Shown here piece after piece: positions 552 to 63,002 of a DNA stretch of 64,000 nucleotides. Position numbers and translations under genes: made by a program. This stretch comes from Selaginella tamariscina (Eukaryota > Streptophyta > Lycopodiopsida > Selaginellales > Selaginellaceae), in assembly GCA_003024785.1 (NCBI GenBank), contig PUQB01000187.1, positions 247,501 through 311,500 on the forward strand, given 5' to 3'. The notes under the pieces are model-generated. The model worked only from the letters and a program-made list of their open reading frames with translations, was not told the DNA's origin and ran no database searches. The number at the start of each line of letters is the position of its first letter. Positions within the stretch are counted from its first letter, which is position 1.

Positions 552-696
552 GCCCATCAGTTGTATTAATAAAGCATGAGATATTATCTTTATACATAAT
601 TATGTATTATTGCACATGCATATTATTAAGCAACCGCAGTTATGATTTCTTAGAAATATTGCATAAACAGATATCATAAATAACACAATTATTTAT

Positions 697-3600
697 GTGC
701 AGGACAATATGTATAATACTGGAGATAAAGTATGTCTTCTTCGGAACAACGAGATAGTTGGCACTGGAACTGTGGAAGTTCGAGATGATAATGCATCATG
801 TCACAATATTGCCCAAGGATCTTGTGTGTACGTATGGGTGAACACCATTTTCAAGCATGTTGAGGTTCGGGAATGGAATTTGAGGAGGGTTCTCCTGTAT
901 TGTGGAATTTGGATGAAGTCAAGGCTGACACAGAATATAGAGTCACAAACAAACAGTAGCACGAGTTTTCCAGATGATGGCTTGCCTGCTGTGATGGATG
1001 AGGTGATTCTCTTTCTTCATGAGATTGAGGTTGGGAGAGGCATCATCACAGCTATAAATCCAATGGAAGCAGTGTCAGAAGAGAAACTAGGGTCCGACTT
1101 CGTGGGTGTAGTTGTGACAGAGGTTTCACCTAATGGCACTTTGCATCCTGGATCCCTCGTGAGGTGGCGAACATCTGAATTAAGACGGCAAGATGGTTCA
1201 ACATATTCTGGGTTGGATTTCAATAATAACAACCCGGAAGAACAACTCATATTTGAAGAGGTTCCTTGCATTGGTCCTATTGTAAGAAAAAGGCGATTCA
1301 TGGGTTGCAGATCTTCCCCTGCAAGTTTCAGCAAGAGGGTGAAGATGGATCCTACATCTTCCGAAAGTGTTACGAGCATTTCCACGATTGACTGCAAGAA
1401 GAAGTGTTGTCAGATGGCAGACCGGAATGAAATTACCCAATGTAGACATGTCTTTCGTACGCTCACCCAAAAGCAAAGGCATGAGTTTGTATATGCTGCA
1501 CTAACTGGGTGTATTGATGGAATGGCCTCGGACACAGGTTATCAGAGTACATCCATGGTATTTAATAAGGTGGCCATCTGCTTCAAAGCTTGGTACAGTA
1601 TATACGGGATCCCAAAGACCACGTTCTACCGTCGGAGGGATGAGTGGCTAGATGGAGCGCGAACCTCAGTACATGGGAACACTCGCTTGGTCAAAACCCG
1701 CTCTCACATTATGGCAGCCATAGAGATACTCAAGGCTTTTGTGGAAGCAAATGCAGACAGGATGCCTCACAAATGCCGAACCACAAATGCAGGGGTCAGG
1801 GAAAATCTCAAGGTTTTGCCTTCAATCTACACTCAATTGAAGCTGTGTGAACATGTGAACAAGTGCCTCAGTTTGATGGGGCTGCAAGCAATCTGCACTG
1901 GTACCTTCAACAACATATGGAATACTCATTTTAAGGATGTGGAGATTGCAAAACACTCTAGCTTTTCCAAGTGTGACACTTGTACATCATTGAAGGCTGC
2001 AGAGGCTTGTGCAAAAACCTTGGTGGAGATCACTGCCATTCAAAAGAAGATGGAGGCCCACATGATTGCACAACAAACTTGCCGGTCTCAGTACTATGCA
2101 CACCGCATGCTTTCTGTGTCACCCATCAGAGTACCTGTGCTTGATCCATGACAAGATGGATCATTCAAAGACCAGCATTCCAAAGCTCGTTGCAACACCA
2201 AAGTGCCTTGGAAATGTCATGAAACTTCCGATTTCATTGACAGGTGTGCTAACACATGGACACGGTTGTGAGTCATATGGACACTTTTCACTTCCACATT
2301 GGTCTAGCGACTCCAATTTCACTATTGGGTCGTTGGCCATGTGTTTCAGAAACCTTGAAGCCCACTCACAGACAAGTCCTATCAGTGATCTCAAAGTGAA
2401 GAAACAACACCTTCAACCTTTACATAATGCTCTCATGAACACGTCTGCACTTGAGGCTACTTGGGAATATGAGAGGCATTGTCAGCAACCTGCACAAAAA
2501 ACAGATGGCCCTGTTGAGAGTTCAGGTTCAGTGGAGGGATCTAGCTCAAATAGTGTACATGTGTCCTCAACATCAAATAAGCTTCCTCGTCATTTGCTTT
2601 TACAGATGGATAATTGTGCAGGCGAGAACAAAAATAGGTAAATCATTTTACTTAAGGGTTTCTCAAGCTCATACTTACTTTTATTTTCTAGATATGTGCT
2701 AGCATACTTGTCAATGCTTGTTGCCAAAGGTGTGTTTGAAACAATCACGCTCAGTTTTCTTATGGTTGGTCACACTCATGAAGATATTGATGCGTTCTTC
2801 AGCAAGGTCTCCAACTCTACAAAAAGGACAAGTGCACTTACCTTACCGCATATGATGAATCTTTTTGAAAATTGCATCTCCAAAAAAAGTTGTGCTTTGC
2901 TTGTGACTGAGGTGCCAGACTTCAAAAAATTTCTCAAGGAGTATATAAAAGGGGAGTGATTCTTTAGTTGGTCACCTTGTGCCGCTACAATTCTTTTTCT
3001 CCATACGAGATGGTATACCTATTATGCAGTACAAGTTACGGCCATCAGAGCAGGAGTGGTTACCGAAAGAGGGGTTAATGCTCTTCAAAAGTGGAGAGAA
3101 TGGAAAGCCACTTCTCCCAGAAGGACAACCAGACCCTATTCCATTGAGTGCCCAGCTCAAGGAACAAGAGGTTATTATTGATGGCATCAAAAAATATGTG
3201 GCATGGGTTCAAAAATCGATGCCAAAGAATTCTGATAAGGCAACTGGTTACTCAGAACTATATAAGCATGTGGTGACTATTGGGAGACTGTTGTTCGAGA
3301 GTTGGAAGGGCCTACTGTCACAAGTACAGAATTGCAACACCCTTTTTGGCCTAAAACAAGGTGGCGAGAGGAGATTGAAATGACATCACTGAGCACAGAC
3401 GACATAGAAGCCAGTAGTGATGTGGAAGTGCAAACCCCACACTTTGTTGGACAAAGGAACCAAAAACCTAAAGCATACTTTGATTGCTGCCAGGATCTTC
3501 AAAAACTAATGATGGTTCTCATTACTCCAGATGCGTCATATAATCAGCCTATTTGGATGGGTCAAATTATCGACACACCTGAAGTAATCACAAAAAATAG

Positions 3601-3769
3601 TATTGTTAAGGTTGCATGGTTCAAACCACAAAAAAGGCGACACGAGAAGGAGAGCGAAAGATATAATGGATGCCTAGAGAAAACATGGTCTCCCAATCAA
3701 AAAGACCCAGCATGTTTTATAAATGTTAAATCCATTCGATATAGGTGGGATGTCAAGGAGAAACGTTGA
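697..3769 (+). pseudogene. DUF7869 (transposase-like) protein gene, frame-broken
   Basis: The first segment, 697-2130, holds a divergent N-terminus and a Cys-containing stretch (KCDTCTSLK). The frame then shifts and continues with the family hallmarks IHDKMDHSKT, GHGCESYGH and MDNCAGENKNR. A 54-bp GT-AG intron at 2638-2691 splits the Arg codon before YVLAYLSML, followed by GHTHEDIDAFF. Two further breaks follow, one near 2950 at an AAAAGGGG run and one at 3255-3285 before RELEGPTVTSTELQHPFWP, and the frame ends at 3769. DUF7869 proteins are plausible RNase H-like transposases of poorly studied elements; that role is inference. The breaks may be decay or consensus errors. The first exon may begin at an upstream acceptor (TGTGCAG ending near 702). 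Confidence 0.7.
2638..2691 (+). other. 54-bp spliceosomal intron in the DUF7869 gene
   Basis: Starts GTAAATC and ends TTTTCTAG. Removing it restores N-K-N-R-Y-V-L-A-Y across the junction, with the codon split after two bases, which matches the expected family sequence. The same mini-intron size is seen in the gene at 18940-23533. Confidence 0.85.
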
Positions 3770-18939: not shown

Positions 18940-18955
18940 TCACCTAAAAAAAATG

Positions 18956-19002
<47 letters not shown>

Positions 19003-22000
19003 CCTAATATCTTTTTTTGTTTTCTTTGTGAACTTATTGTTCTTTTGTTTCTTCTCTCCATCCCCCTTTTTTAAAGTATGCATAGTAATCTGACCGCCAC
19101 ATAAATTTTGGGGATCTTGAATAGCATATTCTATAGCACCAAGTACAAGATCCTTTGCCTCATGATAACCAATATTATTTTTGTACCTAAGTAAAGTGTA
19201 TACTTAATGAAAAATTATATTTTACATATATATCGGTTAATCACTAATACTACATTAGAAATATAAAGAATATATACTTACCCTTCTTCGAGCATCTGAA
19301 ACGCAGCACCACCTCCCGTTCCGATAGCAGCAATGCTATAGTCTATTAGGCTAAGGATCAAGAAATGTTAGTGTAGCGTAAAGAAATATGTAAAATAGAA
19401 AGAAACCTAGGGGAACCTCCGGAATCAAGTAAATATGCACAGTACTTCGCGGTTTCTTCTTCAAATCCCACCACCAAAACTTCTAGCATGTGAAAGGGAC
19501 TGCAAATAGAAAAAAAATCATTATACTTAAAACATCCACACAAAGAGACACGTAATTACCTATAACCTAGCTCGCGAGTAAAGTGAGTGATTTCATAATA
19601 AACCACATATATATATATATATATAGCTAGTTTACATGCAACCAATGCGAGAGACTTACTTTTGGGTTTTCTCCTTGCCTTTCAACTTCTGGCTTCCGTA
19701 CGTCTGCACGTATAATTTTTGCAGTTCCCCATTTATATAGTTCACGTGACTTAGGAATAAGCCTCGATTTGTTTTTAAACGGTTTTCCAGCTTTTTGAGA
19801 AGTGTTTCGCCATTGTTCAAGTGTCCTGAAATAAGTTATAAATAAAATTATAATAAATTGGATTAATAAAATAGTTTTTGTGTAATATTAATATCAACTA
19901 CATAATATGTATATATGTACAATAATATACCTTAAAAATTATTAAACCTAGCTAAGATTATTTTATACAACTTAATAATGATTATATAAATATATATTAC
20001 CACGTACCTGCGAATGCAAATAATATATTGTTACATTTGAAGACCTTGACACAGTTGACATTGACAATTTTAATATTGATTTTGTTGTGACTCGTAAATG
20101 GAATTCCTGGTTGATTACCCGACTTAAGTCCTTTTGCTGTTTTTTCGTGATGGGTAATGTTTCCATTCCCTCCCCAGCTATGATCGCAAAACGGTCATTC
20201 TTTACCAGTGCTATGGCTGTATGACTCTGGAAAAAAAAATATTATATTTAACATTGCGAGAAAGAGTGAGTGACGTACCCGAGGGAGTTCAGCATGTTTT
20301 CTTGAACGGCTTTTCTACAGAAGGAAACCATGAAACCATAAGTAAAAAAAAACAAATATGAAAGTATGAGTTAGTTTATGTGGTAAGGATGTTCACCTTG
20401 TCAGAATCTTCTAGAGAGTCGAGGTCGATGACCAAGTCGTTCCTAAGAGTGCAGTAACCCGCTTCGAATTCTCGTGCCCTTAAATAGCATCGATGTTATA
20501 CTTTGATCTAATGTTTTATTGAATTTTAACAATGCTTAATACTAATTAAAAATATAAAAGAGCAGGTGTAAATCTACAATTGTCCTTGTTGATACCGAAA
20601 CACCTATATTATACATACATGCATACCAATACGTGCATGTAAGTAACTAAGTTAAACACTATAGGATTGTCAGTAATAGATACGTTATGTATACATGTAC
20701 ACACAGACATCATTTTCATAACATGCAAAACACGTAAACACTCGTATACACAGGCAAGTCATATTGATATCAGAAAGAAACACGTTGTTTTCATCTAAAA
20801 GTTCAAAAAAAAAACATAAGATAATATCAAGATTGTCTACCATGTGTGTGTGTTATCTGTATATATACGTAGATTATATATCTACACACACCAACAAACA
20901 CAGGCACACCTGGAATGACGAGTGAAAATCTGCCGCTGTTGAGTGAGTTCAGCAGATTTGGCCTCCAGGAGCTGGAACGTAGCATCATTACGAGCAGCTT
21001 TTTCTTTCCTAGCCATATGCATCATTTGGGTTTTCTGGTGGAGCGGTCGCTGTTCTTCCTGTTGCTTGAGAAAAATGTTATTATACTTTATGCATATATC
21101 GTAAAGAATACATAGTTAGTTTATGCAGTAAGGATGCTCACCTCGCCAGAATCTTCTAAAGAGTCGAGGTCGATGAGCAAATTGTTCTTAAGAGCGCAGT
21201 TGTAGCCCGCTTCGAATTCTCGTGCCCTAAATAGCATCGGTGTTATACTTCGATATAATGCCTTATTGAACATTGTGCTTGTTGATACCGAAACACCTAT
21301 ACTATACATACATGCATACCAACATGCGCATGTAAGATGTTAACTATTCTAACACCATAGGATTATCAGTAATAGATACGTTATGTATACATGTACACAA
21401 AGACATGTCATGTTCATACACAGGCTAATGTTAAGTCACATTCATATAAGACAGGAACGGTTAACTAAAAGTTTAAAAAAAAACAACATAAAAATAACAT
21501 CTACAATGTGTGTGTTATCTATATATATATGCAATTATATATTTACACACATAAACAAACAGATTTTGACCTGGAATGACGAGTGAAAATCTCCGGCTGT
21601 TGAGTGAGTTGAGCAGATTTGGCCTCCAGGAGCTGGAACGCAGCATCTTTACGAGCAGCTGTTTCTTTCATAGCCATCTGCATCATTTGGATTTTCTGCT
21701 CGAGCAGTTGCTGTCCTTCTTGTTGTTTGTAACAAGAGAAGATTTCTCTGCCGCAGCCTTCTTCTTTCGGAGAAACCAGGCTCACCCAGAATTCTTCAGC
21801 GGCAGTCGCATCCTCCATGCTCGCATCTTCGAGGTTTCCCGGCAGCATATCGGAGCAATAGGGATCTCCAGCTGATCCATCAAGAAAGAATGCATCCTCG
21901 ACCGGAAGAAATCCTTCTTTCATTTCGAGTACTTGCGAACCATCTTCAAACGGCCTGTTCGGGACATGAACTGAATGAAAATCGATCAAGGATTCAAGTG

Positions 22001-23533
22001 TACCTCTGCTTTTCCGGATTTTTATGCTGTTGCATGATTCCGTTCGTCTCCAAAGTGGACATCTTCGAGTCTTTGATAGCATGCACTCTGCTACGGCTCC
22101 AAGACAACAACATCAACACAAGAAACAAAGGATGAAAAGAAATGATTCAAATTACCTGTGATTTCCCGGCAGCATATCGGAGCAATAGGGATCTCCAGCT
22201 GATTCATCAAGAAAGAATGCATCCTCGACCGGAAGAAATCCTTCTTTCATTTCGAGTACTTGCGAACCATCTTCAAACGGCCTGTTCGGGACATGAACTT
22301 CGAGTGAAAATCGATCAAGGATTCAAGTGTACCTCTGCTTTTCGGGATTTTTAGGCTGTCGCATGATTCCGATCGTCTCCAAATTGGACATATGCGAGTC
22401 TTTGATAGCATGCACTCTGCTACGGCTCCAAGACAACAACATCAAGACAAGAAACAAAGGATGAAAAAAAAAGATTCAAATTACCTGTGATTTCCCGGCA
22501 GAATATCGGAGCAATAGGGATCTACAGCTGATTCATCAAGAAAGAATGCATCCTCGACCGGAAGAAATCCATCTTTCATTTCGAGTACTTGCGAACCATC
22601 TTCAAACGGCCTGTTCGGGACATGAACTTCGAATGAAAATCGATCAAGGATTCAAGTGTACCTCTGCTTTTCGGGATTTTTAGGCTGTTGCATGATTCCG
22701 ATCGTCTCCAAAGTGGACATATGCGAGTCTTTGATAGCATTCACTCTGCTATGGCTCCAAGACAACAACATCAACACAAGAAACAAAGGATGAAAAGAAA
22801 TGATTCAAATTACCTGTGATTTCCCGGCAGCATATCGGAGCAATAGGGATCTACAGCTGATTCATCAAGAAAGAGTGCATCCTCGACCGGAAGAATTCCG
22901 TCTTTCATTTCGAGTACTTGCGAACCATCTTCAAACAGCCTGTTCGAGACATGAAGATCGGATGAAAATTGATCAAGGATTCAAGAGTACCTCTGCTTTT
23001 CGGGATTTTGCTGCTGTTGTATGATTCCGGTCGTCGACATCTGCGAGTCTTTGATAGCATTCACGCTGCTACGGCTCCAAGACAACAACATCAAGACAAG
23101 AAACGAAGGACGAAGAGAAAAGATTCAAATACCTGTCTAATGCTGTGCTGCTTTCAATCGTCTCCACAGCAGAGATCTGCGTTATTTTCAGGACCTGCCT
23201 GTTGCTGTCACAACATCGTTCACAAGGATGGAAATTGAGCAAGAAAGATTCAATTTTACCTGCCACTTTCGAAATTTGGCTGCAGATTGAGCATCTCCGA
23301 GGCGAAAATCTGCAATTTTTCGACGTTCTGAAGGGAAGAACTGGAGCTGCTGCATAGACATCATTCACAAGGATGAAAATTGAAAAAACAAGATTGACAT
23401 ACCTGTGATTTCCGATGTTCTGCATGTTGACAAGATTGAGCTCCTCCACGACAGAAAGCTGCGCTTTTTCGATATTTGGAGAAGGAATCGCGATTTCTTT
23501 AGTGGAACAAGAAGAGAATCGGACTGCTTGCAC
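18940..23533 (-). CDS. Exon-repeat protein with C-terminal proteasome-like domain (22 exons)
   Basis: Exons (high to low): 23533-23403, 23349-23260, 23198-23133, 23068-22991, 22939-22814, 22748-22662, 22610-22485, 22419-22333, 22281-22156, 22090-22004, 21954-21571, 21226-21142, 21064-20910, 20478-20397, 20314-20279, 20226-20119, 20044-20008, 19825-19660, 19499-19407, 19342-19282, 19186-19004, 18943-18940. Phases agree throughout, apart from one extra C at 19407-19410. From the first in-frame ATG (23425) this gives about 762 residues. Exons 4-11 are four copies of a two-exon module (IKDS..M plus LEMK.GFLPVEDAFFLD). Exons 11-14 hold a duplicated Gln-rich coiled coil and an acidic REFEAGY exon. 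Exon 15 is basic (KSRSRK). Exons 16-21 resemble a proteasome subunit: ALVKNDRFAIIAGEG, VFKCNNILFAFAG, NPFHMLEVLVVGFEEET, AAIGTGGGAAFQMLEEGY, GGQITM. Catalytic Thr1 and Asp17 equivalents are not evident. The start is unsettled: no ATG precedes 23425 in frame. Confidence 0.75.
20397..21710 (-). repeat. Duplicated coiled-coil plus acidic exon pair
   Basis: Unit 1 is the coiled-coil end of exon 11 (KDAAFQLLEAKSAQLTQQ) with the exon at 21142-21226 (AREFEAGYNCALKNNLLIDL). Unit 2 is 20910-21064 (NDATFQLLEAKSAELTQQ) with 20397-20478 (AREFEAGYCTLRNDLVIDL). The introns between are also homologous (TTATGTATACATGTACACA and TGCATACCAA blocks at 20620-20710 and 21310-21400). The exon at 20478 uses an AAG acceptor where its twin uses TAG. 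Confidence 0.9.
22004..23068 (-). repeat. Four tandem two-exon modules (320-329 bp each)
   Basis: Unit = exon A (78 or 87 bp), intron of 49-51 bp, exon B (126 bp), intron of 65 bp. Unit starts are 23068, 22748, 22419 and 22090, a spacing of 320, 329 and 329. The first exon A lacks nine bases (Thr-Leu-Glu). Introns are as conserved as exons, so the copies are recent. The last exon B (in 21571-21954) reads through its donor site (GGAAACCTCG instead of GGAAATCACAG before GT) and is fused to the coiled-coil exon. Confidence 0.95.
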
Positions 23534-23599
23534 CGAGAACGGATCTATAGGAGAGCGGCGAGCTCTTCACTACCCTCCCATAACATTTCAAATTATCAA

Positions 23600-23715
23600 T
23601 TTATAGAATATTCCAGTGCCACATCATCCATATACGGAGAATATTCTATTATACGTCCAGTGCCACATCATCCATATACGAAGAATATTCTATTATACGT
23701 CACGTGTTAGGACAG
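23600..23715 (-). promoter_or_regulatory. Promoter-proximal 44-bp duplication with three GAATATTC dyads
   Basis: Two direct repeats, 23613-23656 and 23657-23700 (CCAGTGCCACATCATCCATA start), lie just upstream of exon 1. GAATATTC occurs at 23606-23613, 23639-23646 and 23683-23690. Each fits the nGAAnnTTCn heat-shock-element dyad. TACGTCACGTG at 23696-23706 contains ACGT-core elements. The regulatory role is inference from known plant motifs. Confidence 0.5.
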
Positions 23716-29883: not shown

Positions 29884-30065
29884 ATGTTAGAAAAAATTAC
29901 CAAAATTAATCAAAACTAACATATCACTAGTATATTTCAATCTTATCCTAGAAGATTCTAGAATATTAAATGTTAGAAAATATTCCAATTTTATTTAGAA
30001 GAGAACATGAGAGTATTCATAAAAAGTTAAGGTAAAGTCTAGGTATTTAGATTCAACACCAATTG
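29884..30065 (+). repeat. 3' LTR of the Ty3 element
   Basis: Pairs with 24960-25145. Contains GAAGATTCTAGAATATT at 29951-29967: three correctly spaced alternating GAA/TTC units plus a partial fourth, the textbook heat-shock-element arrangement. Identity to the 5' LTR is perhaps 75-80% by eye, so the insertion is not recent. Confidence 0.65.
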
Positions 30066-33000
30066 TAGTATCTTTTAAGGATATGGATAGATTAGATTTT
30101 ATTTTATCATTAAATCATTGATAAATTAAAATAGTTATCCTAAATAAGTTAATTTAAGACTTATGCATCTTAGTATTACGTTGTTTAATCTTTTTTATAA
30201 AGATTATAAACTATATACATATGCAATTACTAAAAAAGTTGAAACCAAAGTACGTTTTTATTATTAATATATTATTTATGTCTTTCTTCAACCGAATTGT
30301 GGATATATATTATATAAATATGTTTGTATATAATATGTGTATGTGCTTGACTAATGTGTTTATACGCCTTAGGTACAATGTGCATATGTAGTATATAAAT
30401 ATAATTATCTTCATTTAAATCCTAAACAGAACGAGTACAAGTAAAATTATAAATATCCATAAGTCAAAAATTCAATATAAATTAATTTTTAAATCTCCCC
30501 AAAAAAGTTATATCTTTATCATAAGTACATGAAGTTTTGTAAAGTTTCACGATTTCTTGATTTGAGAATAAAATTATAATTTCTTTAGAAAGATTAATTC
30601 TAAGTATAAATATAGATTTTAGTGTAATAACACTACATTAATATTAATATTAATATCTTATGACATTATAACATCCTTTTTATAACCTATTAAATTTATT
30701 ATACAAACTTTAAGGTTTCTTATTTTGGCCATTGTAATTATTTAAGACAATTATACATGTTAACCTTTGTTTTAGTCATTCCAAATTTACAAAGTTTTAT
30801 ATAAATATACAAACATTTTAGAATCTTCATTCCACTCATTTTAATTTTTTATAATTTTTTGAACCCATCGTTTTTAAAAATTGGTTGCATATAAATTTAT
30901 CGATTTATTTTTGAAAACATATGTTATTGTTTTGCTTATTTATTTAATATGTTATAAATTCATGTAAATTTTTGACAATTGTTTTCGTTATTTAATATGT
31001 TATATGTAGGTTCGTACTCTTCCTAATGGCAATATAACTTGATGTAAATAATTTTTTATTCTATCATGTGGTATTATAATATAATTATCTAAAGCGTATA
31101 TTTTTGAATCAAAAGTTAAATTAAATAATCATTTGTGACACTTTATTATTTAGAAATTAATAATTTAATAAAGTACCTTAATTATACTTTGGAAACACAT
31201 ATTATTTATCAGCATTAAACTTCTATTAATATTAATACTTACTTCTTCTTTAATTTCATTATAATTTTATTATCCATCAATCTATTAAAATCTCCCCATT
31301 TCTAATTATATATAATTTATTACTCATTATTTCTTAAAATTAATTAAGTTTTTACTATCTATCAATTTATTAAAGTTTCATTATTTTATACCTAATATAA
31401 TCATAATAGTGATGTTTATAAATATTGGATTCCATTTTTAAAATTATGTTTAATAAATATGCAAATGTAAAATTAGTATTTAAATGAGAATTCTTAGTGC
31501 TTTCATTATACAATAATTGAATTCTTAACTTTACATGTTATATAATTTAAATGATCAAAATGTACATCATGATATATAATAATATAAAGATTATATAGAA
31601 TATATCTTATATATATATATATTAGTACATATTGAGGTGACATTTTAAATTTTTTTTGTATATAAATAAAAATTTCTCACCCTATACACAATTTTTTGAG
31701 TTGAATATAAAACTTCTTATAGTTCCACACTTTGTTGTGTTTTCTATAAAGAGCATCCTCATCATATATATATATATATATATGAGATTCTTTTTTAGTA
31801 TTTTTCATAATATTGTTATTCTCATCTTCAATCTTCAAAATTAAAATAATGATTCAACTCCTATAAAAAAAATTAAAATATTAATAATATATTGTATAAA
31901 AGTGTAAACAAGCTTTTTTAACTCAAAATAATTAATGTTGTCTTTATACCTACATATGTAATGACAATATGATATAAAAATATTTATATTTCACATGTAT
32001 ACTTACTTAATATATTGATTAAATAATAATAATACATTAAAAATGTAAAGAGCATGTTTTTATTATAGCGTAACATGTTTAATATTTTAACTTAATAAAT
32101 AAAAAATAATGACTTATATTCAATTTAGACAAGAGATACATGATAAACAACTTCTTGACAAGTTATTTTTTCAAAAGTGTTCCAATAAGAAATTGAATAT
32201 GTACTTAAAAAGTTATTATATAACTTTGGTACGTATAACTTAAACGACTTGGGTGAGAAATAGGTAGAGTCAAGGAATTATTGTAAAAATCCTTAAGAAA
32301 ACGTTCCAAACAGGACTAATGAATTTAATTATAAAAGTTTTATCAGTGGGAAGGGATTTACGGTGATGGTTTTAAAACATACATATATTAAGATTCACTT
32401 TTCATTCATTATTTTTATGGTAACTTACCTTTAATTCCAATAAGTATTTTTATAACATATATATATTTATAATAACACAATTTAATATGTTATGAATTAA
32501 CAAATATAGATTTATACTTAAAAATTCTTTAGAATGTTTGCTTTTTTAAATTTTAATATATAGCAATCACAATTTTATTTCATCTTTTTCTTCTTAATGT
32601 ATTTATCTTTTAACACGATTTTTAATTGAACTACCTAATGTGAAAAATTATATGAAGATACTTAAGAACATTTAAAATTAAAAACACACATACAATACAA
32701 TATGTGATATACATTATGTAATGATATCTACATATTATATAATAACAATGAAAAAGATAAGACTTATAAAGTTTTTAATGGCAATGGGTATTTCACTTTT
32801 TTGACTCCATTGTTTGTTTTTTTTTAGTTTTAATATATGGCAATCACAATTTTATTTTATCTTTTTCTTCTTAATGTATTTATTTTCTAACACGATTTTT
32901 AATTGAACTACCTAATATGAAAAGTTATATGAAGGTACTTAAGGTGGTTTTATTTAAATAAAAATTAATTGAACCTAAATGTTCTTAGAGCCATTTAAAA

Positions 33001-34139
33001 GTGATTAAAAATTAAATATGCAATTTCAATTATGTAATTATCATTACATAATGTATATTACATATTGTATTGTATATGTGTGCTTATTTTAATTTTAAAT
33101 GTATTGTATAAATAATAATAAAAAAGATAAGACTCATAAAGTTTTTAATGACAATGGGTATTTCACTCTTTTGACTCATTTGTATCTTTTTTATATATAC
33201 TCTTTCACGCACACACACACAATGAATTTATGTTGTTAAACCATAATATTTTACATAGTCGTACATGTAATGAACAACAATTATGCAAATTAAAAATAAT
33301 ACTAATATTATATAAGGTATTGTATATTTTAAGTTCAAGAACAAAATTGGAATTTATATTTATGTTTTCAAAAAAGATTAATGTCATAAAATAATGAATG
33401 GTAATTGTGTTTAAATGTACAAATAAAGTATTAATGTGTTACACATGCTTATAACACAAAACACACATATTCATAATATTCTTATAAGTTATAATTATGT
33501 ATATTTAGATTTACATATGTACATGTTTATACGCAAACTTTAAAAACTTAATTGAGTTTTATCTTCTTCTTAAATTTTGAATTCTTTATTACTTTTTAAA
33601 TACATATTAAACTTTTACATTAATATACATCTACATAATAATATAAATATATATTTATATACACATTGACTTGACCATTGTTATATCATTGAAACAGTAA
33701 CTTATTTATATAATTTTACAATATTATAACATATAAATATAAATGAATAGGATTTACTTGTTAATTCTTCTTAGAGTTGAGATTTGTAAGTTCATATACA
33801 CTGAATTATTGCCTATATATATATATATATAGCTTAACTATTTTAAATTTATTTTTTTAATCTAATTTAATTCAGTTTAATTATAATTATTTTAGGACAC
33901 TTGAATAATGGCTAATAACTTTTGGAAATTGTTGAAAAACTATATAATCACAATTTAGCATTATTTAAATGTGAGTTATATAAATGAATAAGTATCGAAA
34001 GGAAAAAACACAAGTAAGTGTATATATTTTTCTGTGTATAATGTTGTCTTTTATGTAGAACATGTTACATATGCCATACATTTTAGGAAGAACACAACCG
34101 TGTGGGTGTGTATGTCTTTGTGTATAATGTTTTTGTTTT

Positions 34140-47100: not shown

Positions 47101-48450
47101 GGATGTACTTCTTGAGCACATGCTTCCTAGTTGGGAAGATATCGTGAAGGCCTAAAAGGTTAAGTCATGGATTTGAAGGTTGCAAGAAGTCTTGAACGGT
47201 GACATAACTTTCATGCATATGCATGGTCATTCAAGACGCTGAATGGTATGCTCATATTTATTGGAGATGGTCCCAAGTGTCACGGTGTGGCGCCTCCAGT
47301 TTACATCAACTTTTAGTTGTGGTTCTTTCATAACAACCTGATGTTTAAACATATGGGATTTCAACGATGTCTTGAGAGTATTTATATTGGCTTCGACTTC
47401 ATCAAGACTTGCATGAGTACATTCGTACATGTTTGAATTGTCAACAGCATAACGTGTCTACACTTTCTCCTGTTGCAGCCTTAAAACCAATTCGGGTTTC
47501 TCACCCGGATAGCTTATGACATCATTGAACCATTTTTCGTGTGGCAGTTTTGTAATTGTTACATCATTATGTGCTCTGATTATTTAACTTGATGAGTGAA
47601 AGTGTGCACTTTGCTAAATGCTACAACAACTTTTATCATCAAATTCTTACTAACTCATGTGGTGCTAAAACATAGTTGTCCCAAGAGAAACCTATTGGAT
47701 CAGGGTCTTGGCCTTGCGGCAAAAGCAGTAGCTTTGTTGATTGCAAATCTGCCAATTCTTTGCATCTTGCATCAGCTTGAGATTGATTGTTTAATGGAGC
47801 AATTAAAGAAAACTTTCAAAGACATGCTTGTTAAATATGTAAATCCCACCCATACGGATTTGGATATGTGGCTTCTTTATCTAGTCAACATGAATTTCCC
47901 TATTTAAGGCTTTGTATGATCGTGAGCTAGTGCTACCGTTGACAATCGGCTTGAATCCTCAAGAGGCATGATATATGAATGAGTGGATGTGGTTGGAATA
48001 TTTAAACCAAGTTCTTCTTTTATTTATGAGTTCTACTTTAGTACCAAAGTTCTTCTTTACTTTATGAGTTCTACTTTAGTACCAAAGTTCTTCTTTTACT
48101 TTATGAGTTCTACTTTAGTACCAAGTTAAAGATTTGGTTCTAGTCAAGGCTAGGGGATCAAACTCATATGACAAGACTTTGACCTTGTTGGGTTGGACAA
48201 GTAGTTAGGGACCCAAGTATATCGTTTGAGACATCATGATGGTGTACAAAAGTCCCAACATGTTACATATGTGTGTCAACTGCTTTCATTCTGCCAATGG
48301 ACAGTCATGCATGGAGAAGCACAATCTTGGGTGGAGTTCAAATCTTGAGAAGGGATTATGTAAGGTTGCATGGTTATTTACATCCCCTTATATAAATACC
48401 ATGTATGGAGAAGCCTTGAAGGAGGTCGTATTTCAGGCTTAATCCTCTCT
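44140..48450 (+). mobile_element. Second Ty3-type element, decayed
   Basis: Terminal similarity: TAAGGTCGCATGGTTATCTACA...ATAAATATCATGTATGG at 44147-44220 and TAAGGTTGCATGGTTATTTACA...ATAAATACCATGTATGG at 48360-48409 look like LTR pieces. Inside: gag (about 44240-45140, QQFEIKFISLVNRMDLN, and a degenerate knuckle CYEC...GYVARSC with a stop), protease-like STLVDFGCPYTFTQF at 45410-45460, reverse transcriptase (FTIDFRLLNDVFIPNSYSLP, TPWGLYEFTIMPFGLVRA, ARAYIDDLL near 46280-46310, intact YIDD), RNase H (46690-46930), and an integrase zinc remnant near 47400. Stops and frame breaks are dense. Confidence 0.8.
48004..48126. repeat. Three ~42-bp tandem repeats inside the Ty3 element
   Basis: The unit TTATGAGTTCTACTTTAGTACCAAAGTTCTTCTTTTACT (shown by its anchor TTATGAGTTCTACTTTAGTA) occurs at about 48021, 48062 and 48103, with small length changes in the T run. 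Confidence 0.9.
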
Positions 48451-49532: not shown

Positions 49533-49929
49533 CTGCATCGAATATTAAATGAGTATATAACTAATCTTTCGAGCACGCACTATCCGTATGCATGTCCGTA
49601 CATACATGTATATGACCATATACATCTCATTATATTGCTGTGTGAGAGAGAGATGAAATGAGATGAGATAAAGTTTAGGATTTCGACTACATGCGTGAGA
49701 GAGGAGGTACGGGCTGCATTAATATAAAAAAAAGCATTATACACAGAAACATACTCACCCACACATCATAAACACACACACAGGAACACGTAGCACAGGC
49801 TAATGTCATATAATATAAGAAAGGAACGGTCTATAAGATATCACCAAGATCGTCTACAATATGTGTGTGTGTGTGTGTGCGTGCGTGCGTGTAAACAGAT
49901 TACACGCGCGTGCGTGGGCTCTATTTTAC

Positions 49930-50505
49930 CTGGAATGACGAGTGAAAATCTGCCGCTCAGCAGATTTGGCCTCCAGGAGCTAGAACGCGCCATCCGCTGT
50001 TTCTTTCATAGGCATCTGCATCATTTGGATTTTCTGCTCGAGCCCCTGCTGTTCTTCCTCTTGTTTGAGAATCCAACGTAACAAGTGAAAGTTTCTCTGG
50101 TAGGATCTTCGACTCTCTGCTCCGGCAAATCTTCTTCTTTCGGACTCATCCAGCATTCATCAGCGGCAGTCGCATTGCTCGCGTCTTCGAGGTTTCCCGG
50201 CAGCATATCGGAGCAATAGAAATCTGCATCTGATTCATCAAGAAAGAATGCATCTTCGACCGGAAGAAATCCGGCTTTCATCTCGAGTCTTCAAACAGCC
50301 TGTTCGTGACATGAATCTTGGATCAAAATCGGGATTTTGCTGCTGTTGCGTGATTCCGGTAGTCTCCAAAGTGGAGTCTTTGGCAGCATTCACTCTGCTA
50401 GGGCAACGATATCACACACAAGGACGAAGTTCCGAAATTTCGCTGCAATGCTGTGCTGTTTTCAATCTTCTCACGGCGGCGGAAATCTGCGATATTTCGA
50501 GGACT
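49930..50505 (-). pseudogene. Decayed partial copy of the exon-repeat gene
   Basis: Homologous to exons 3, 4 and 11 of the gene at 18940-23533, with only one A/B module. Seen: ISQISAAVRRLKTAQ, then [20 protein letters not shown], then KAGFLPVEDAFFLDESDADF and LPGNLEDASNATAADE, then KQEEEQQGLEQKIQMMQM and LLEAKSAERQIFTRHS. The exon A donor is deleted together with the end of that exon (sequence jumps from AATCCCG to the intron's ATTTTGATCC). A frame break occurs near 50060, and a TAG replaces the CAG of AFQLLEAK. Four repeat modules, or their later gain, distinguish the intact gene. Confidence 0.8.
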
Positions 50506-50986: not shown

Positions 50987-53900
50987 TTAATCCTCCTCTC
51001 CCTGGTTATCTTCTTTATAAAGCTTCACCATATCATCAATACGCAATATAGTAATTGCCGCCTCAGTAGCAAACTAAAAAGCAGGCAGATTAGTTTATAA
51101 TTATATTTGGAAATCATTAATTAAGTATAATTATTTATACGTTGATTAAATTCCTAAAACTATGTATGTATATATATATGTCATGTATATAGGGACCTGT
51201 ATTATCTTCAGTTTGCCAATAGCTGGTTCCAAAAACTCCAGCCTCCAAATTATTCCTCAATGTTCCTTTCACAAGATCCAACCCAAATCTGCAAAATCAT
51301 ATTAATATATATATATAATAATGTAACAGTTAATAGAAGATTCTATATTACTGTATTACAGCATTTATGCTCATGTCTCATGCTCATTGTGTGCGTGTCA
51401 TATGCAATGTAATTATATAAATTAGATTATACATCCAGAATATAGAGATATTTCTGTGCGTATGTTCTGTAATCTAATCTGCAGTAATATATTGTGTATA
51501 TCATCATGGAAGCTTACCCAAAAATGCTGCTTGTCATGCTTCGTCTGTGCAGCGTTATGACATGAGCGTAGCTTTGCAACCAGGTCTGTTGAGTCTTTTG
51601 CAGCATTCACAGACAACACCTGCAAGAAAAAAAAATACATACCGTGTGTGTGTGTGTCTATATATATATATAATCATAACATATGTAAATTAGAATAAAA
51701 CGATATAAAATATGTGACTAACCTTTGGAATAACAAGAAGAGCTTCGGCAAATTCTGCAATGGCTAGCTGCTCACGTGATCCCAATGTGGTAAGCTAGGT
51801 TTTCCAAGTAAACAGATAAAGCCGCCTCTACTGCACCTCCTCCAGCTACCACCTACAAAACATAAAGGTGAACACACATATAGTGTTATTAAGAAATTCG
51901 TTTATAAAATACAGACTTATAACGTAAAGTAGCTTGTTGCGTTATATAACGTACCGCATTCGACTCTAAAGTACGCTTAACAATGCATAAAGCATCGTGA
52001 AGAGAGCGCTCCATCTCATCAAGCATGTGATTTTGCACCTCGGAGTATAATCGATACCTGAAACATCCGTTATATATTGGTTTATATAACGTGTTTATGT
52101 GCACATATATATGTGTGTGTGTGTCTGTATGCATGTATATATGTGCATACTTTATGTATACAGATATATGAGGATGTCTATTGTGATTCTGAAAACTTAC
52201 AGCCTTCGATGATTTTGCTCCTTTTATCATGATAACATCATCGTCTGCAACTTGTTCCTCAACAACTTCGTCAGCTGTTAATAAAATGAGCATTTTACAA
52301 GTATATAAACATCTTTATACATATATGAATATGTGTCATTATATATACATCATTTCACACATACGCACAAGCGTACCTAAGCCAAGATATGACGGCTCAA
52401 ATGATTCACCCCCTTCCATGTCAGCCAGAGTAGTAATCATAGTTGCACCCGTTGCCTTTGCCACGTGTCTCATGTCTTCCTTTGGTACACGACGGACAGC
52501 TATGGCACCTGCCTCTACAAAATACTAATGTAGAAACGCCCTCGTTAGACATACATGTAAGATGTACACAAATATATTACATGAACACATATACATACAT
52601 AGAGACATAAACGTACTATGACGTATATACAACAAACTAAATGAATTGACAACTCTTAGTAGACACTGTTAATAATATTAATACGACGTTTAATAATTAT
52701 TGAGTACTTCTAAATTACCATACCTTTAAAGACATATCGTCTATACCCTTAGTAGTAAGAATCACATTTGCACCAGCTTTAAGTATCTTCTCAATTCTCT
52801 CCTTCGTAATGTCCGATTCTCTGTTAGTAAAGTAGTTAACTAGAGAGAGAGAGAGAGAGAGAATTATCTATTGCTAAGAGATACCTTTGGCGAATCTTTT
52901 CCAGTTCTCGAGGGTCATTAACTAAAACCTGAACTCCCATTTGCATTTTTGCCTTTTGCAAGTTCACGTCTAGGCAAGCAATGCGTGCTGGAGAGACCCT
53001 TTGTGGCATTCCTTGTGCAGCACGTCCAGTGTTCAATGCATAGCCATTTAGTAAATAACTGTCTTTACCACTCTTCCCATGAGCTTTTAATATATTGATA
53101 GACTGCAAAAAGTAGTTAATTAATAAACGAAACCCACTAACTACAAAAATATTAAGCTGATCTTTATTTGTGAACATTAGATATATTCTATTGTGATTAA
53201 CTTGACTATAAGTTTAGCTTATAGATACACACACACATAGATATCTGGAGTTTGAAATTGTTGCATGCTGTTACATATCGACATGAATACACTTGATATA
53301 GTGTACATTATTCGAGTATATATTAAGTAATCTAGAATTAAACTGATCTATATTCGCAAACCTTGATAGGATATTTGACCTCCCCTTTATCTGTGACAGT
53401 TTTCACAGATTGGACGGCGTCCACTGCCTGAAGACAATCGTACATAATTATATATGGTAATATAGCTGCATATCGAGAATGAATATACCATTTTCGAAAA
53501 GAAGTCGCTGTCGGTGCCGATAATCTTAGATGACATGCTTGTCTTTGCACAGTTGATCAGAGTCTCCTTTCCTAGTTTCTCAACCTGCGATATGACATTT
53601 ATATTAATATATCAAGTATTAAACATAACTTATTTTATGTAGAGAGCAATACTTTATAAAGCATACCTTAATGGAGAGCTTCTCTTCAATGTACTTGCAG
53701 GCTTCACGCATTGAAAGCTGCATAAAGTTTTATAAAGTAACAAGACAAAACTATAATAAAAATAATAAAAATAATACTAAAATAAATAATTACCCTGAAT
53801 CCACTGATGATGGAAGTTGGGTGTATTTGTTACGTACTAAATCATTTGCTCTCTGCAGTTCAAAATGTCAAATATGTGTAGTAACATCGGTTTGAGTATA

Positions 53901-58612: not shown

Positions 58613-58694
58613 GTCTCGTCACAAACCATAATTATTTATCTATATACACATATACACACACAAGCTTTATAAATATCTGTATATATTCTCCATA

Positions 58695-60461
58695 ATGAAA
58701 CGTATGGAGAAAGCACAGGTATCAATATTTCAGCTCACTATAGCAATCTCAACAATCTTAACACTGTCTTCTATAGTGTTCCTCATTAGACAGCCAGCAG
58801 CTAGTATTATCTCAGTAACAAATGTTGATTCACAAATGTCCAGGAATGTGGAGCCGACAAGTCTGTACCATATTGTGTTTGGGATTGGGGCTGCCTCACA
58901 TGTACTGGAGAGGAGGAAGGAGTATATTAGCTCATGGTGGAGGCCTCATAAAACACGAGGCTATGTTTATGTTGATAAACCTACGAGCAATTGGTCGAGC
59001 AAATCTCTTCCAGAACTCAGGTGTGTGTGTGTGTGTCTGTGTTGCGTTGGATATAGTGTATATAGCACTTCAAAACTTGTTAGATGTAGCATATCTTATT
59101 TCTTACGCAAATAAGCGACTATATCATATACTATGTAGTAGTTCATAGTATAACACCATATATATATATTAGATGTTAAGTTGATAATTAGATGTTTTAT
59201 TATTTGTGAAAAGCTTTTGTATAGAATATCTGAGGACACATCGAGATTTAAGTATACATATCCACAAGGGAGCAGGTCGGCAATTAGAATATCCAGAATT
59301 GTGTCTGAGATTTCCGTCGTCGGCTTCCAGATGTTCGATGGTTTGTTCTTGGGGACGATGACACTGTCTTCTTCGTGGACAACTTAGGTAAACGTCGTGT
59401 GTGTGTGTGTGTATGTGTGCGTGTGTTATCTATTGCAAATTGATACTCAATAATAAACTCATCTCTGTCTGTCTGTGTGCACTCGCACATGCACATCCTA
59501 ACTAATGTTCTGTTTAGTCAGAGTTTTATCAAAGTACGACCACAGAGAATACTTTTACATAGGATCAAGCTCAGAGAACCACATACAAAATGTAAGAGGT
59601 TTTTCATCAAACATGGCATACGGGGGTGGGGGATTTGCCATAAGCTATGCACTGGCGGAGGCACTTGCGAGCATTCAAGACGAGTGTCTTGAGAGGTACC
59701 ATTTTCTGTATGGGAGTGACGATCGTATACAAGCGTGCATGGCCGAGCTCGGTGTGCAGCTCACGAGGGAACCCGGGTTTCACCAGGTTCTCTGTGTGTG
59801 TGACACATATAAGTTTCTTTTGTATAATATAAGATGTCAAATCTCATACTAAAATCAAATCACTACATAGCATTAAAGGATATATAAACATATGGAGTAC
59901 ACATGGTACACTTAAATCTCACCTCTACGATCTTAGTATATTTCGTAATAATCAAGTACAATGTATTGTAAGATGTTATATAAATAGTATAGCATTGTAG
60001 ATAGTAGTACACACATTGATATATTAAACACACCTTTAACATATGTAATGAATTTAATATAATTTTGTGCAGTTTGATATATCTGGAGATGCATCTGGAA
60101 TTCTAGCGGCACACCCCCTAGCACCAGCCATCTCTCTACACCATCTCAATATAATACACCCACTCTTTCCCAATATGTCACAGCAAGTCGATCCGTCACT
60201 TGATCTCCGCGGTCACAATCGATCCAGGCGGCATCCTTCAGCAATCTATTTGCTATGACAAAGCATCCAACTTGACTATACAGGTACTAAAACTTAGTAT
60301 TCATATATACTGGCTGTGATTATATTTTATACTGCACAATATATACTATGAGTTTAGAACTTATACATATACATGTTCTTTGAATTATATATATCTAGTA
60401 TATACATGCACACACAGTGCTGTGTACGTGATACTGTATGTATATATATATATATATATAT

Positions 60462-60502
<41 letters not shown>

Positions 60503-61463
60503 CAGACAGACAGACACACACACACACGTGCATATTCAATGCGTGTATGAATGCAGATACATGCACAGGCACAACCGAACCTATCTCCATTTCATTTATA
60601 GACAATATTCTAAATAAATGCCACTATATGTAATATTATAAGGCAGATGCTATTATGTGCACATCTTATGCGTACACACACACGTGTGTATGTGTGTTAC
60701 AAAGACTAACAATGTATTAACTACCTTTTAACAGATATCATGGGGTTATCTCGTACAACTTAGCCGCGGAATTATACCTCCAAGATTATTGGAGCTCCCA
60801 CTCCGTACGTTTTCCGGGTGGTACGGAGAGAGGATTGACTTAGGTTTCCCATTCAAAACCAGGGCTTTACCACCGGACATGTGTGACAGGCCGACGAGAT
60901 ACTACATGGAGAGTGTTCACGTAGTTGGTAGCGGTGATAATTCGGTCAGTAATTATACAAGGAACTGGAGTGGAAGGTAATCACCATGTGTGTGTGTGTT
61001 GTGTAGCAGAAGGAACTCGACAGGAATACATCTGTCTGTGACGTATGTATTTTGTGTATATTATGACTTATGATGTATTTATGCTCTCTCTCTCTACACA
61101 GCTCCAACAAATAATTCTGGTAGCAACTTTAGTTGTGAAGTTCATATTATGGTATATAAGTATAGTATAGTATACTAATATATCATACTATATTAAAATG
61201 TAGTATGTTATATATATTAATATTTTTAATAAACAGTAAGTATTTATTCCTTGCTTTATAGGTGTGCTAGCGTCCAACGACATGGTAAAGACTTAAAATG
61301 GGTCTTAGTGGACAAGGAAAGAATGAATGAATCTTGGTATAAGGTGAGGTTTTCGCGCGCACACACACACACACACATGTATATATACATCATAAATATA
61401 TTCTTAACATTAAATATTATCAAATCAGGTGCATATTTTATCTATATATATATATATATATAT

Positions 61464-61505
<42 letters not shown>

Positions 61506-61666
61506 TTATGTGTGTATGTGTGTATATATATAGATACATATAATGCATATTACAGGCACCAAGAAGACAGTGTTGTAGGATTATGGACGTCGGCATAGAG
61601 CATGGAATGCATGTACGTGTTGGAAAATGCAGAGAAATTTGTATAATGCGAGGTTTTACTCTTTAA
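58695..61666 (+). CDS. DUF604 / fringe-related glycosyltransferase (GT31)
   Basis: Predicted Golgi type II membrane glycosyltransferase. Exons 58695-59020, 59225-59387, 59518-59786, 60073-60283, 60735-60976, 61262-61343, 61556-61666; about 467 residues. Domain order: short cytosolic N-terminus, membrane anchor at residues 11-30 (FQLTIAISTILTLSSIVFLI), HIVFGIGAASHVLERRKEYI, SWWRPHKTRGYVYVD, SAIRISRIVSE, VRWFVLGDDDTVFFVDNL (Asp triad for the metal), YIGSSSENHIQN, AYGGGGFAISYALAEAL, LYGSDDRIQACMAELGV, REPGFHQFDISGD, LAAHPLAPAISLHHL, ILQQSICYDKASN, ISWGYLVQLSRG, LPLRTFSGWY, and C-terminal APRRQCC. Two one-base frame breaks: near 59316 before the GDDD motif and near 60196 (CC for C). Intron 5 and others carry long microsatellites. 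Confidence 0.92.
60440..60530. repeat. Compound microsatellite (TA)n(GA)n(CA)n in an intron
   Basis: About 24 bp of TA, then about 34 bp of GA, then GACA and CA steps, all within intron 4 of the DUF604 gene. A similar (TA)n(GA)n tract is at 61444-61503 in intron 6. Confidence 0.95.
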
Positions 61667-61765
61667 TTTAATTAAGGTAGTATATTTTGGAATATACTCT
61701 GCGGTTTATGTTCGAATATCCGAGGGGAATATGCGTTTAGGTCTAGCAGAGGGTTAGGGCAGGCT

Positions 61766-63002
61766 ATGGCGGATCATGGGCGCGAGCCGTGCCCGGACAG
61801 GATTCTGGATGACATCGGAGGCGCTTTCAGTATGGGAGCGATCGGCGGCTCGGTGTATCACTTCATTCGGGGTGTGTACAACTCGCCGCGAGGCGAGCGT
61901 CTTGTCGGCGGTGCACAGGGTGTTCGTATGAATGCGCCGCGAGTCGGAGGGAGCTTTGCTGTATGGGGCGGCTTGTTCTCGACATTTGATTGCACTATGG
62001 TTTACTTGCGGCAGAAGGAAGATCCCTGGAATTCAATCGCTGCTGGTGCTGCTACAGGTATAATGCACTAGTATATGCATACGTCTATCTAATTACTGTT
62101 CCATAAACATGCTATTAAGACAATGGTGTCATTATAAGTGGTGATCAGAATATAATGCAAGGCAGCAAAAATGAATATGTATAGCTTCCAACATATATGC
62201 AATACATGTATGTATCTGTATATAGATATTTCCTCCTTGTACAGGTGGGTTTTTGCAGCTGCGAGCGGGACCACGATCTGCGACCAAGTCTGCAATATTT
62301 GGTGGTGTGTTGCTTGCGCTCATAGAAGGTGCAGGCCTCATGCTCAACCGGGTCATGACTCAGCCTCCCCCCATTGAGGATCCAGTTCCACAGGTTTATC
62401 TATCTATACGTATATGCACATAGATACATGTAAGTTCTGACTAGCACATACATGCACATAGATACATGTAAGCTCTGACTCATGCAAGAATCTATCTATA
62501 CTTATATGCACATAGAAACATGTAAGCTCGGACTAGCATGCAACAGACACACATACAGAATATGGACCATACATGTAGTGAGAACTTCATTCATGACCCA
62601 GCCTCCATTGAGGATCCAGTTCCAGAGGTTTATCTATCGATACTTATATGCACATAGATATATGTAAGCTCTGACTAGCATGCAACATACACATACAGAA
62701 TATGGTTCAGAACCATACATACATGTAATGAGAACTTCATTCCACAGGTTACGGGACCACCAACGGGGATCTTCCCATTCTCGACTCCAAACACTGCTGG
62801 GATTCCCGGGGCTTCTTCTGGGATTCCGGGGGCTTCATCTGGAGAGGCATCAAGCTCGAGCTCTGAAAGCAGTTCCTCTTCTTCGTGGTTTGGTAGCTGG
62901 TACGGAGGTGGCAAGAAAGAGGAGCCAAAGCCGTACAACGAGAAGCTGGACAGTTTTGATGCAAATCCAGCACCCCCTATTCCAGGTTTCGAGGTCAAGT
63001 AA
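61766..63002 (+). CDS. TIM17: Mitochondrial inner-membrane translocase subunit TIM17
   Basis: Channel-associated subunit of the TIM23 presequence translocase. Exons 61766-62057, 62245-62393, 62748-63002 join in phase with no break: 231 residues, near the usual plant length. N-terminus [20 protein letters not shown], then [58 protein letters not shown], then [20 protein letters not shown]: the four-helix Tim17/22/23 fold with its Gly-rich packing faces. The C-terminal third is a plant-style extension: [10 protein letters not shown], a repeat of GIPGASSG, a Ser run, then [20 protein letters not shown]. The leader has GGGTTAGGGCAGG and GGAATATACTCTGCGG upstream at 61690-61705. Confidence 0.97.
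62394..62747 (+). repeat. TIM17 intron 2 built of duplications incl. an exon fragment
   Basis: The block CACATAGATACATGTAAG appears about five times in degenerate form (62416-62665). At 62592-62634 there is a near copy of the end of exon 2 with its donor region (CAGCCTCCATTGAGGATCCA), where CACAG|GTTTAT has become CAGAGGTTTAT and CCCCCC has shrunk. A second copy of ACATGTARTGAGAACTTCAT precedes the true acceptor. Confidence 0.88.

Follow-up and report, generated by a model that had tools for sequence, protein, structure and literature searches.

The window analysed here is a stretch of 64,000 nucleotides of Selaginella tamariscina (contig C490, 247501-311500), and on its minus strand, a strand that the initial annotation had left unstated, lies the gene that we call gene A (Table 1). 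The spliced model looks intact and is predicted to join an acidic front half, made up of repeats, to a divergent domain of the proteasome type, with 544 residues ahead of the 219-residue domain. All 21 introns, which range from 49 to 431 bp, have GT-AG borders. The chosen frame holds no stop other than the final TGA at 18942-18940, within exon 22, against 33 and 37 stops in the other two frames in a script check, and the one continuous frame that had been proposed for this region is thus recovered. Since the exon ends were picked by eye at GT-AG sites and the chain was then checked by script, it should be regarded as a model and not as the prediction of an independent program. The start codon is weak, and this counts against the reading that we favour below. 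The first in-frame Met (23425) stands 7 codons ahead of the end of exon 1, whose limit at 23565 is the position taken and not a defined end. Short ATGs upstream of this Met are out of frame, and so are the equivalents of the ATGs of the related copies D and F described below. Just upstream of the gene, a 44-bp element is present in two head-to-tail copies (97% matches, 23612-23701) and is possibly promoter-related.

Table 1. Features of gene A and related sequences; positions are those of the window unless a contig is named.
Feature	Position	Strand	Basis
Whole fusion gene A, 22 exons, 763-aa product	18940..23565	-	splice model, GT-AG
Exon 1, sole in-frame Met at 23425-23423	23403..23565	-	splice model
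329-bp tandem array, 4 copies, 94% matches	21835..23136	-	tandem-repeat search, splice model
Exon 11, last acidic repeat and first coiled-coil-like stretch	21571..21954	-	splice model
Exon 12, acidic tail AREFEAGY...LDSLEDSGE	21142..21226	-	splice model
Exon 13, coil-like stretch, second copy	20910..21064	-	splice model and self-comparison
Exon 14, acidic tail, second copy	20397..20478	-	splice model and self-comparison
Exon 15, basic linker KSRSRKHAELPR	20279..20314	-	splice model
Exons 16-21, proteasome-family domain, 219 aa with last Arg	19004..20226	-	PF00227
Relic like exon 18 region, 73.8% over 145 columns	33850..33986	+	self-comparison
Copy E, degenerate front module, frame changes and stop	49924..50504	-	self-comparison
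Copy D, front cassette and different C-terminus	C490 about 314-316.7 kb (L041 1950-4720)	-	genome search

The repeated two-exon module noted earlier corresponds to four exon pairs drawn from the tandem array. Each array copy holds one pair, an exon of 75 or 84 nt followed by one of 126 nt or by the start of exon 11, and the introns within the copies are 49-68 nt long. Each of exons 2-11 has a length divisible by 3 and is flanked by phase 2 introns, so that the frame survives the gain or loss of units. Exons with lengths that are multiples of 3 and with equal intron phases characterize a general class of tandem symmetrical-exon repeat proteins. The array of gene A, multiplied in tandem, resembles this class in both properties but differs from it in matching no known family. 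The front-half repeat has no Pfam family above the cut-off and no homologue in the protein search, and Pfam matches below the cut-off (Calmodulin_bind, CopK and DUF families) were taken as chance. The coil/acidic module is indeed duplicated, the stretches 20369-21068 and 21114-21729 being 74% identical at the DNA level; the coiled-coil label is our reading of the sequence by eye. The basic patch, DKKSRSRKHAELPR, is also present and is encoded by exons 14-15.

The membership of the back half in the proteasome family, for which the initial annotation had proposed a profile check with the spliced protein, is clear: exons 16-21 match PF00227 with E 2e-12 and 47.6 bits (cut-off 22.4) over profile positions 6-186 of 189. 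This E-value improved with the splice, two earlier and less correct versions having given 2.8e-7 and 7e-9. By sequence, the solved chains closest to the domain are proteasome subunits of both alpha and beta type, with a best E of 1.1e-4, and all 16 distinct sequences of solved chains at E <= 0.01 are proteasome subunits as named. A profile of 14 canonical subunits scored the domain at 36.7 bits, a value reached by none of 1000 shuffles. The domain appears slightly more beta-like than alpha-like by its profile scores, both with the archaeal models of NCBIfam (41.4 bits for beta, 30.4 for alpha) and with profiles of the canonical subunits (26.4 and 21.6 bits).

Few eukaryotic proteins are as highly conserved as proteasome subunits. 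The domain of gene A is like them in its near full-length PF00227 match above the curated cut-off and in its GxG and GG motifs. It is unlike them in its catalytic residues, which are not conserved, in lacking Gly-1 and in carrying an unrelated N-terminus. In a tree with 14 Arabidopsis subunits it could be assigned to none of them; 9 of the 12 inner branches were open and the domain fell beside another long branch, and assignment to a single subunit was rejected. Its intron positions match no single subunit gene among nine kinds, as roughly read from tblastn pieces. One intron, between EEG and YKNN just before the Y, also occurs in this genome's beta-5 and alpha-2 genes, within inexact tblastn boundaries. 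The 20S alpha subunit has an N-terminal helix with the SPxGRLxQVEYA signature; this signature is absent from gene A, where the residues ahead of the domain are those of the basic patch. Nor is there a short removable propeptide in the model. To the HslV and archaeal beta models the domain shows weak local similarity (24.9 and 41.4 bits), far under their cut-offs of 137 and 224; of the HslV equivalogs, TIGR03692 gave 22.3 bits for a cut-off of 157.75 and NF003964 gave 24.9 bits for a cut-off of 137.

The suspected loss of the catalytic Thr1 and Asp17 agrees with the profile alignment, in which Thr1 is replaced by His, Asp17 by Gly (with Glu adjacent), Lys33 by Arg and Ser129 by Thr. The HMM and MAFFT alignments both put His and Gly at the first two positions. 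Ser, not Gly, precedes the His of the Thr1 column. A one-residue shift of the first strand would bring a Thr, preceded by His, to position 1 and a Glu to 17, which again gives neither Gly-1 nor Asp17. With Thr1, Asp17 and Lys33 all replaced, catalysis by the domain is unlikely, as judged from these alignments.

We know of no proteasome subunit fused to a long repetitive extension. Among the titles and abstract openings searched, no description of such a fusion was found, and a term search within PMC12650242 gave no match. In a collection of 5.8 billion proteins, the domain drew 978 candidates, none at E <= 1e-3, the front module 18 candidates, none at E <= 0.01, and the full protein 7997 scored entries, none at E <= 0.01. 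Given the uncertain plant coverage of this collection, these negatives are weak evidence of rarity.

Within the genome, the domain search returned 11 matches, all on the contig of the window: five belong to gene A, five to a copy B and one to a copy C. Copy B is inverted and 98.9% identical to gene A over 4912 columns. It belongs to an inverted duplicate on the same contig (about 168-213 kb versus 298-248 kb, the latter inside the window) with 97-99% identity in most blocks, gap openings exceeding mismatches in 7 of the 13 collinear ones. The exons of A and B show 14 mismatches plus 16 gap columns; their introns show 27 gap columns and no mismatch. Copy B carries 9 single-base indels in exons 14-21, which counts against the reading favoured below. 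The assembly comprises 300,702,823 bases in 1391 contigs. A row for S. tamariscina in a table of the review PMC8558194 gives 150, 300.73, 37.4, PacBio and Falcon; under inferred headings we read the three numbers as the estimated size, the size of the assembly (Mb) and the GC percentage, with the method last. By that row the published assembly seems roughly double the genome in size. Copy B is probably the other haplotype or an assembly duplicate, although it may be a real recent inverted duplication. Given the near-identical inverted duplicate, the single-base indels and the apparently doubled assembly, we rejected it as independent evidence.

Copy C, 77-83% identical to gene A over the largest blocks, belongs to an older duplication with flanks of 76-80% similarity. 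In exons 14-21, 10 of the 12 indels aligned between A and C break the frame and several splice sites of C are changed, whereas gene A keeps all of them; by this comparison copy C is decayed. The exons of A and C have diverged faster than the introns. We rejected positive selection as the cause, because copy C is broken and G>A or C>T changes account for 94 of its 174 mismatches with gene A in exons 14-21. Elsewhere in the window, the relic resembling the exon 18 region sits within an AT-rich stretch (30001-34000, GC 0.19-0.20), where a possible scrap of exon 21 of the domain was also seen (31883-31948, E 0.047).

The front module gave at least 33 matches in the genome, of which 31 are on C490 and two others on C1059 and C593. 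The number of exon pairs differs among copies, being 4 in A, 2 in C (the second altered) and 1 in D, and the N-terminal array is in this sense expandable, as had been supposed. Copy D retains a single exon pair and a single coil, after which, from the donor position that gene A uses in exons 12 and 14, it splices in frame into unrelated sequence; the first exons of its C-terminus have no Pfam match at E <= 1. Copy E lies 3' of a TCP-1/CCT-type chaperonin gene on the same strand (50990-53213, minus), one piece of which matches Pfam Cpn60_TCP1. For copy G, on C593, the front part alone was seen.

In copy F, on C1059, the cassette splices in frame into an exon resembling the start of a proteasome domain. 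On the canonical profile this exon scored 8.6 bits, reached by none of 1000 shuffles (1 of 1000 for a longer joined version), in statistics that rest on a splice picked after the resemblance had been noticed. The score of the C-terminus of copy D, taken as a control, was reached by 772 of 1000 shuffles, and that of the second half of the copy F domain alone by 49 of 1000. Among 5211 six-frame ORFs from the loci at hand, the ORF of copy F had the highest score (7.3 bits) once the canonical subunit loci were set aside. In the same ranking the exon-16 ORF of gene A itself had 4.0 bits, so single exons are weak evidence. Against PF00227, copy F gave E 0.069 in one version, a longer one not being listed, and no match to the domain of gene A in direct pairwise comparison. 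The resemblance is suggestive, and that the domain of copy F is only weakly proteasome-like counts against the reading favoured below.

Selection was estimated on the front module, taken as the last exon pair plus the equivalents of exons 11 and 12, in six pairs of copies with uncorrected p-values. The dN/dS ratio was 0.39 for A-D (p 0.007) and 0.34 for D-F (p 0.016), and without significance 0.46 for A-F, 0.57 for C-D, 0.72 for C-F and 0.79 for A-C. The recent repeat copies within gene A show no constraint in six pair comparisons (0.55 to 2.05), three further pairs being undefined for want of synonymous change, and the two coil copies gave 1.36, which is not significant. From this pattern, the front module appears to encode protein and to have been retained in some copies at least, and the array to be young and loosely held.

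On these grounds we favour, with a probability of about one half, the reading that gene A is a fusion specific to a lycophyte lineage, whose proteasome fold is catalytically dead and whose product works outside the 20S core. In the spliced model its front half is built from phase-compatible exon pairs, multiplied in tandem, and an acidic coiled-coil-like module, and its back half is a strongly diverged proteasome-family domain that may fold as the Ntn sandwich of four alpha-beta-beta-alpha layers without cleaving. Such a front half would not be removable by Gly/Thr autolysis and would misfit the normal position of a beta subunit, so that the protein would be expected to work outside the core. 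There the coil might oligomerise it, the acidic array serve as a tether of variable length and the dead domain as a binding platform. In this reading the front half behaves as a cassette, its terminal phase-0 splice donor having been linked to different downstream partners. Of the pseudo-proteasome subunit with an expandable array that was originally envisaged, the continuous frame, the PF00227 membership, the unconserved catalytic residues and the variable array stand; the identity as a subunit is at most putative, and none of the 14 is assignable. If gene A is expressed, a proteasome fold would have escaped the 20S particle and been reused as a non-catalytic part. The symmetrical-exon array, with its unit number differing among sister copies, also offers a test of in-frame exon-repeat expansion.

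A wider extension of this reading can be put forward tentatively. The copies would form a gene family of a new kind, whose repeat-built N-terminal cassette keeps its splice donor fixed and acquires different C-terminal domains through exon shuffling. It would have carried inactive proteasome folds at least twice (A and F), in non-proteasomal pseudo-proteasome proteins of adjustable length.

It is possible, though we doubt it, that gene A is instead a functionless chimera, produced by segmental duplication and exon shuffling, still open because it is recent and decaying like copies C and E. The broken state of these two sister copies would fit, as would the unconstrained recent repeats, the lack of a clear upstream start codon and the concentration of the module matches on one contig. 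Set against this, all 10 frame-breaking A-C indels would have to fall on the side of C, an outcome expected about once in 1000 under equal drift (a figure that depends on the alignment), and the A-D ratio for the front module is low. Two separate genes or transcripts, the first covering the front half up to about exons 12-14 and the second the proteasome-like part, are unlikely. The matching donor of copy D leads to a different partner, which makes the end of the cassette a real boundary; but the domain has no start codon of its own (its first Met is internal, in GEGMETL, and the ATG of exon 15 lies in another frame), the junctions of exons 14-16 have GT-AG signals and keep the frame, and in copy F the same cassette runs in frame into a proteasome-like exon. 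It is still less probable that the domain replaces a canonical beta subunit in a specialised 20S particle, with the front half as an oversized propeptide or internal plug: the family membership and slightly beta-like scores agree with this, but Gly-1/Thr1 and Asp17 are not conserved, the branch is very long (2.64 versus a median of 0.99 in the tree) and 544 residues precede the domain. That the domain is still an active, non-proteasomal Ntn hydrolase, relying on the Thr of SHTAIALV and a Glu in place of Asp, would need the one-residue shift that both alignments speak against, and we give this hardly any credence, as the residue at -1 would then be His and self-release of Thr1 is not expected.

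The remainder of the window holds a DUF604/Fringe-like gene and a Tim17-family gene, both within 58632-62068 on the plus strand, with matching pieces near 59.5 kb and 61.7-62.1 kb, respectively. Long open frames at 667-3766 (plus strand; 494 aa and others) look transposon-like by eye, the 494-aa frame having no Pfam match at E <= 0.1. Tandem repeats with units of 39-44 bp occupy 201-554 at the left end of the window, and a 38-bp unit is present in 3 copies at 48009-48124.
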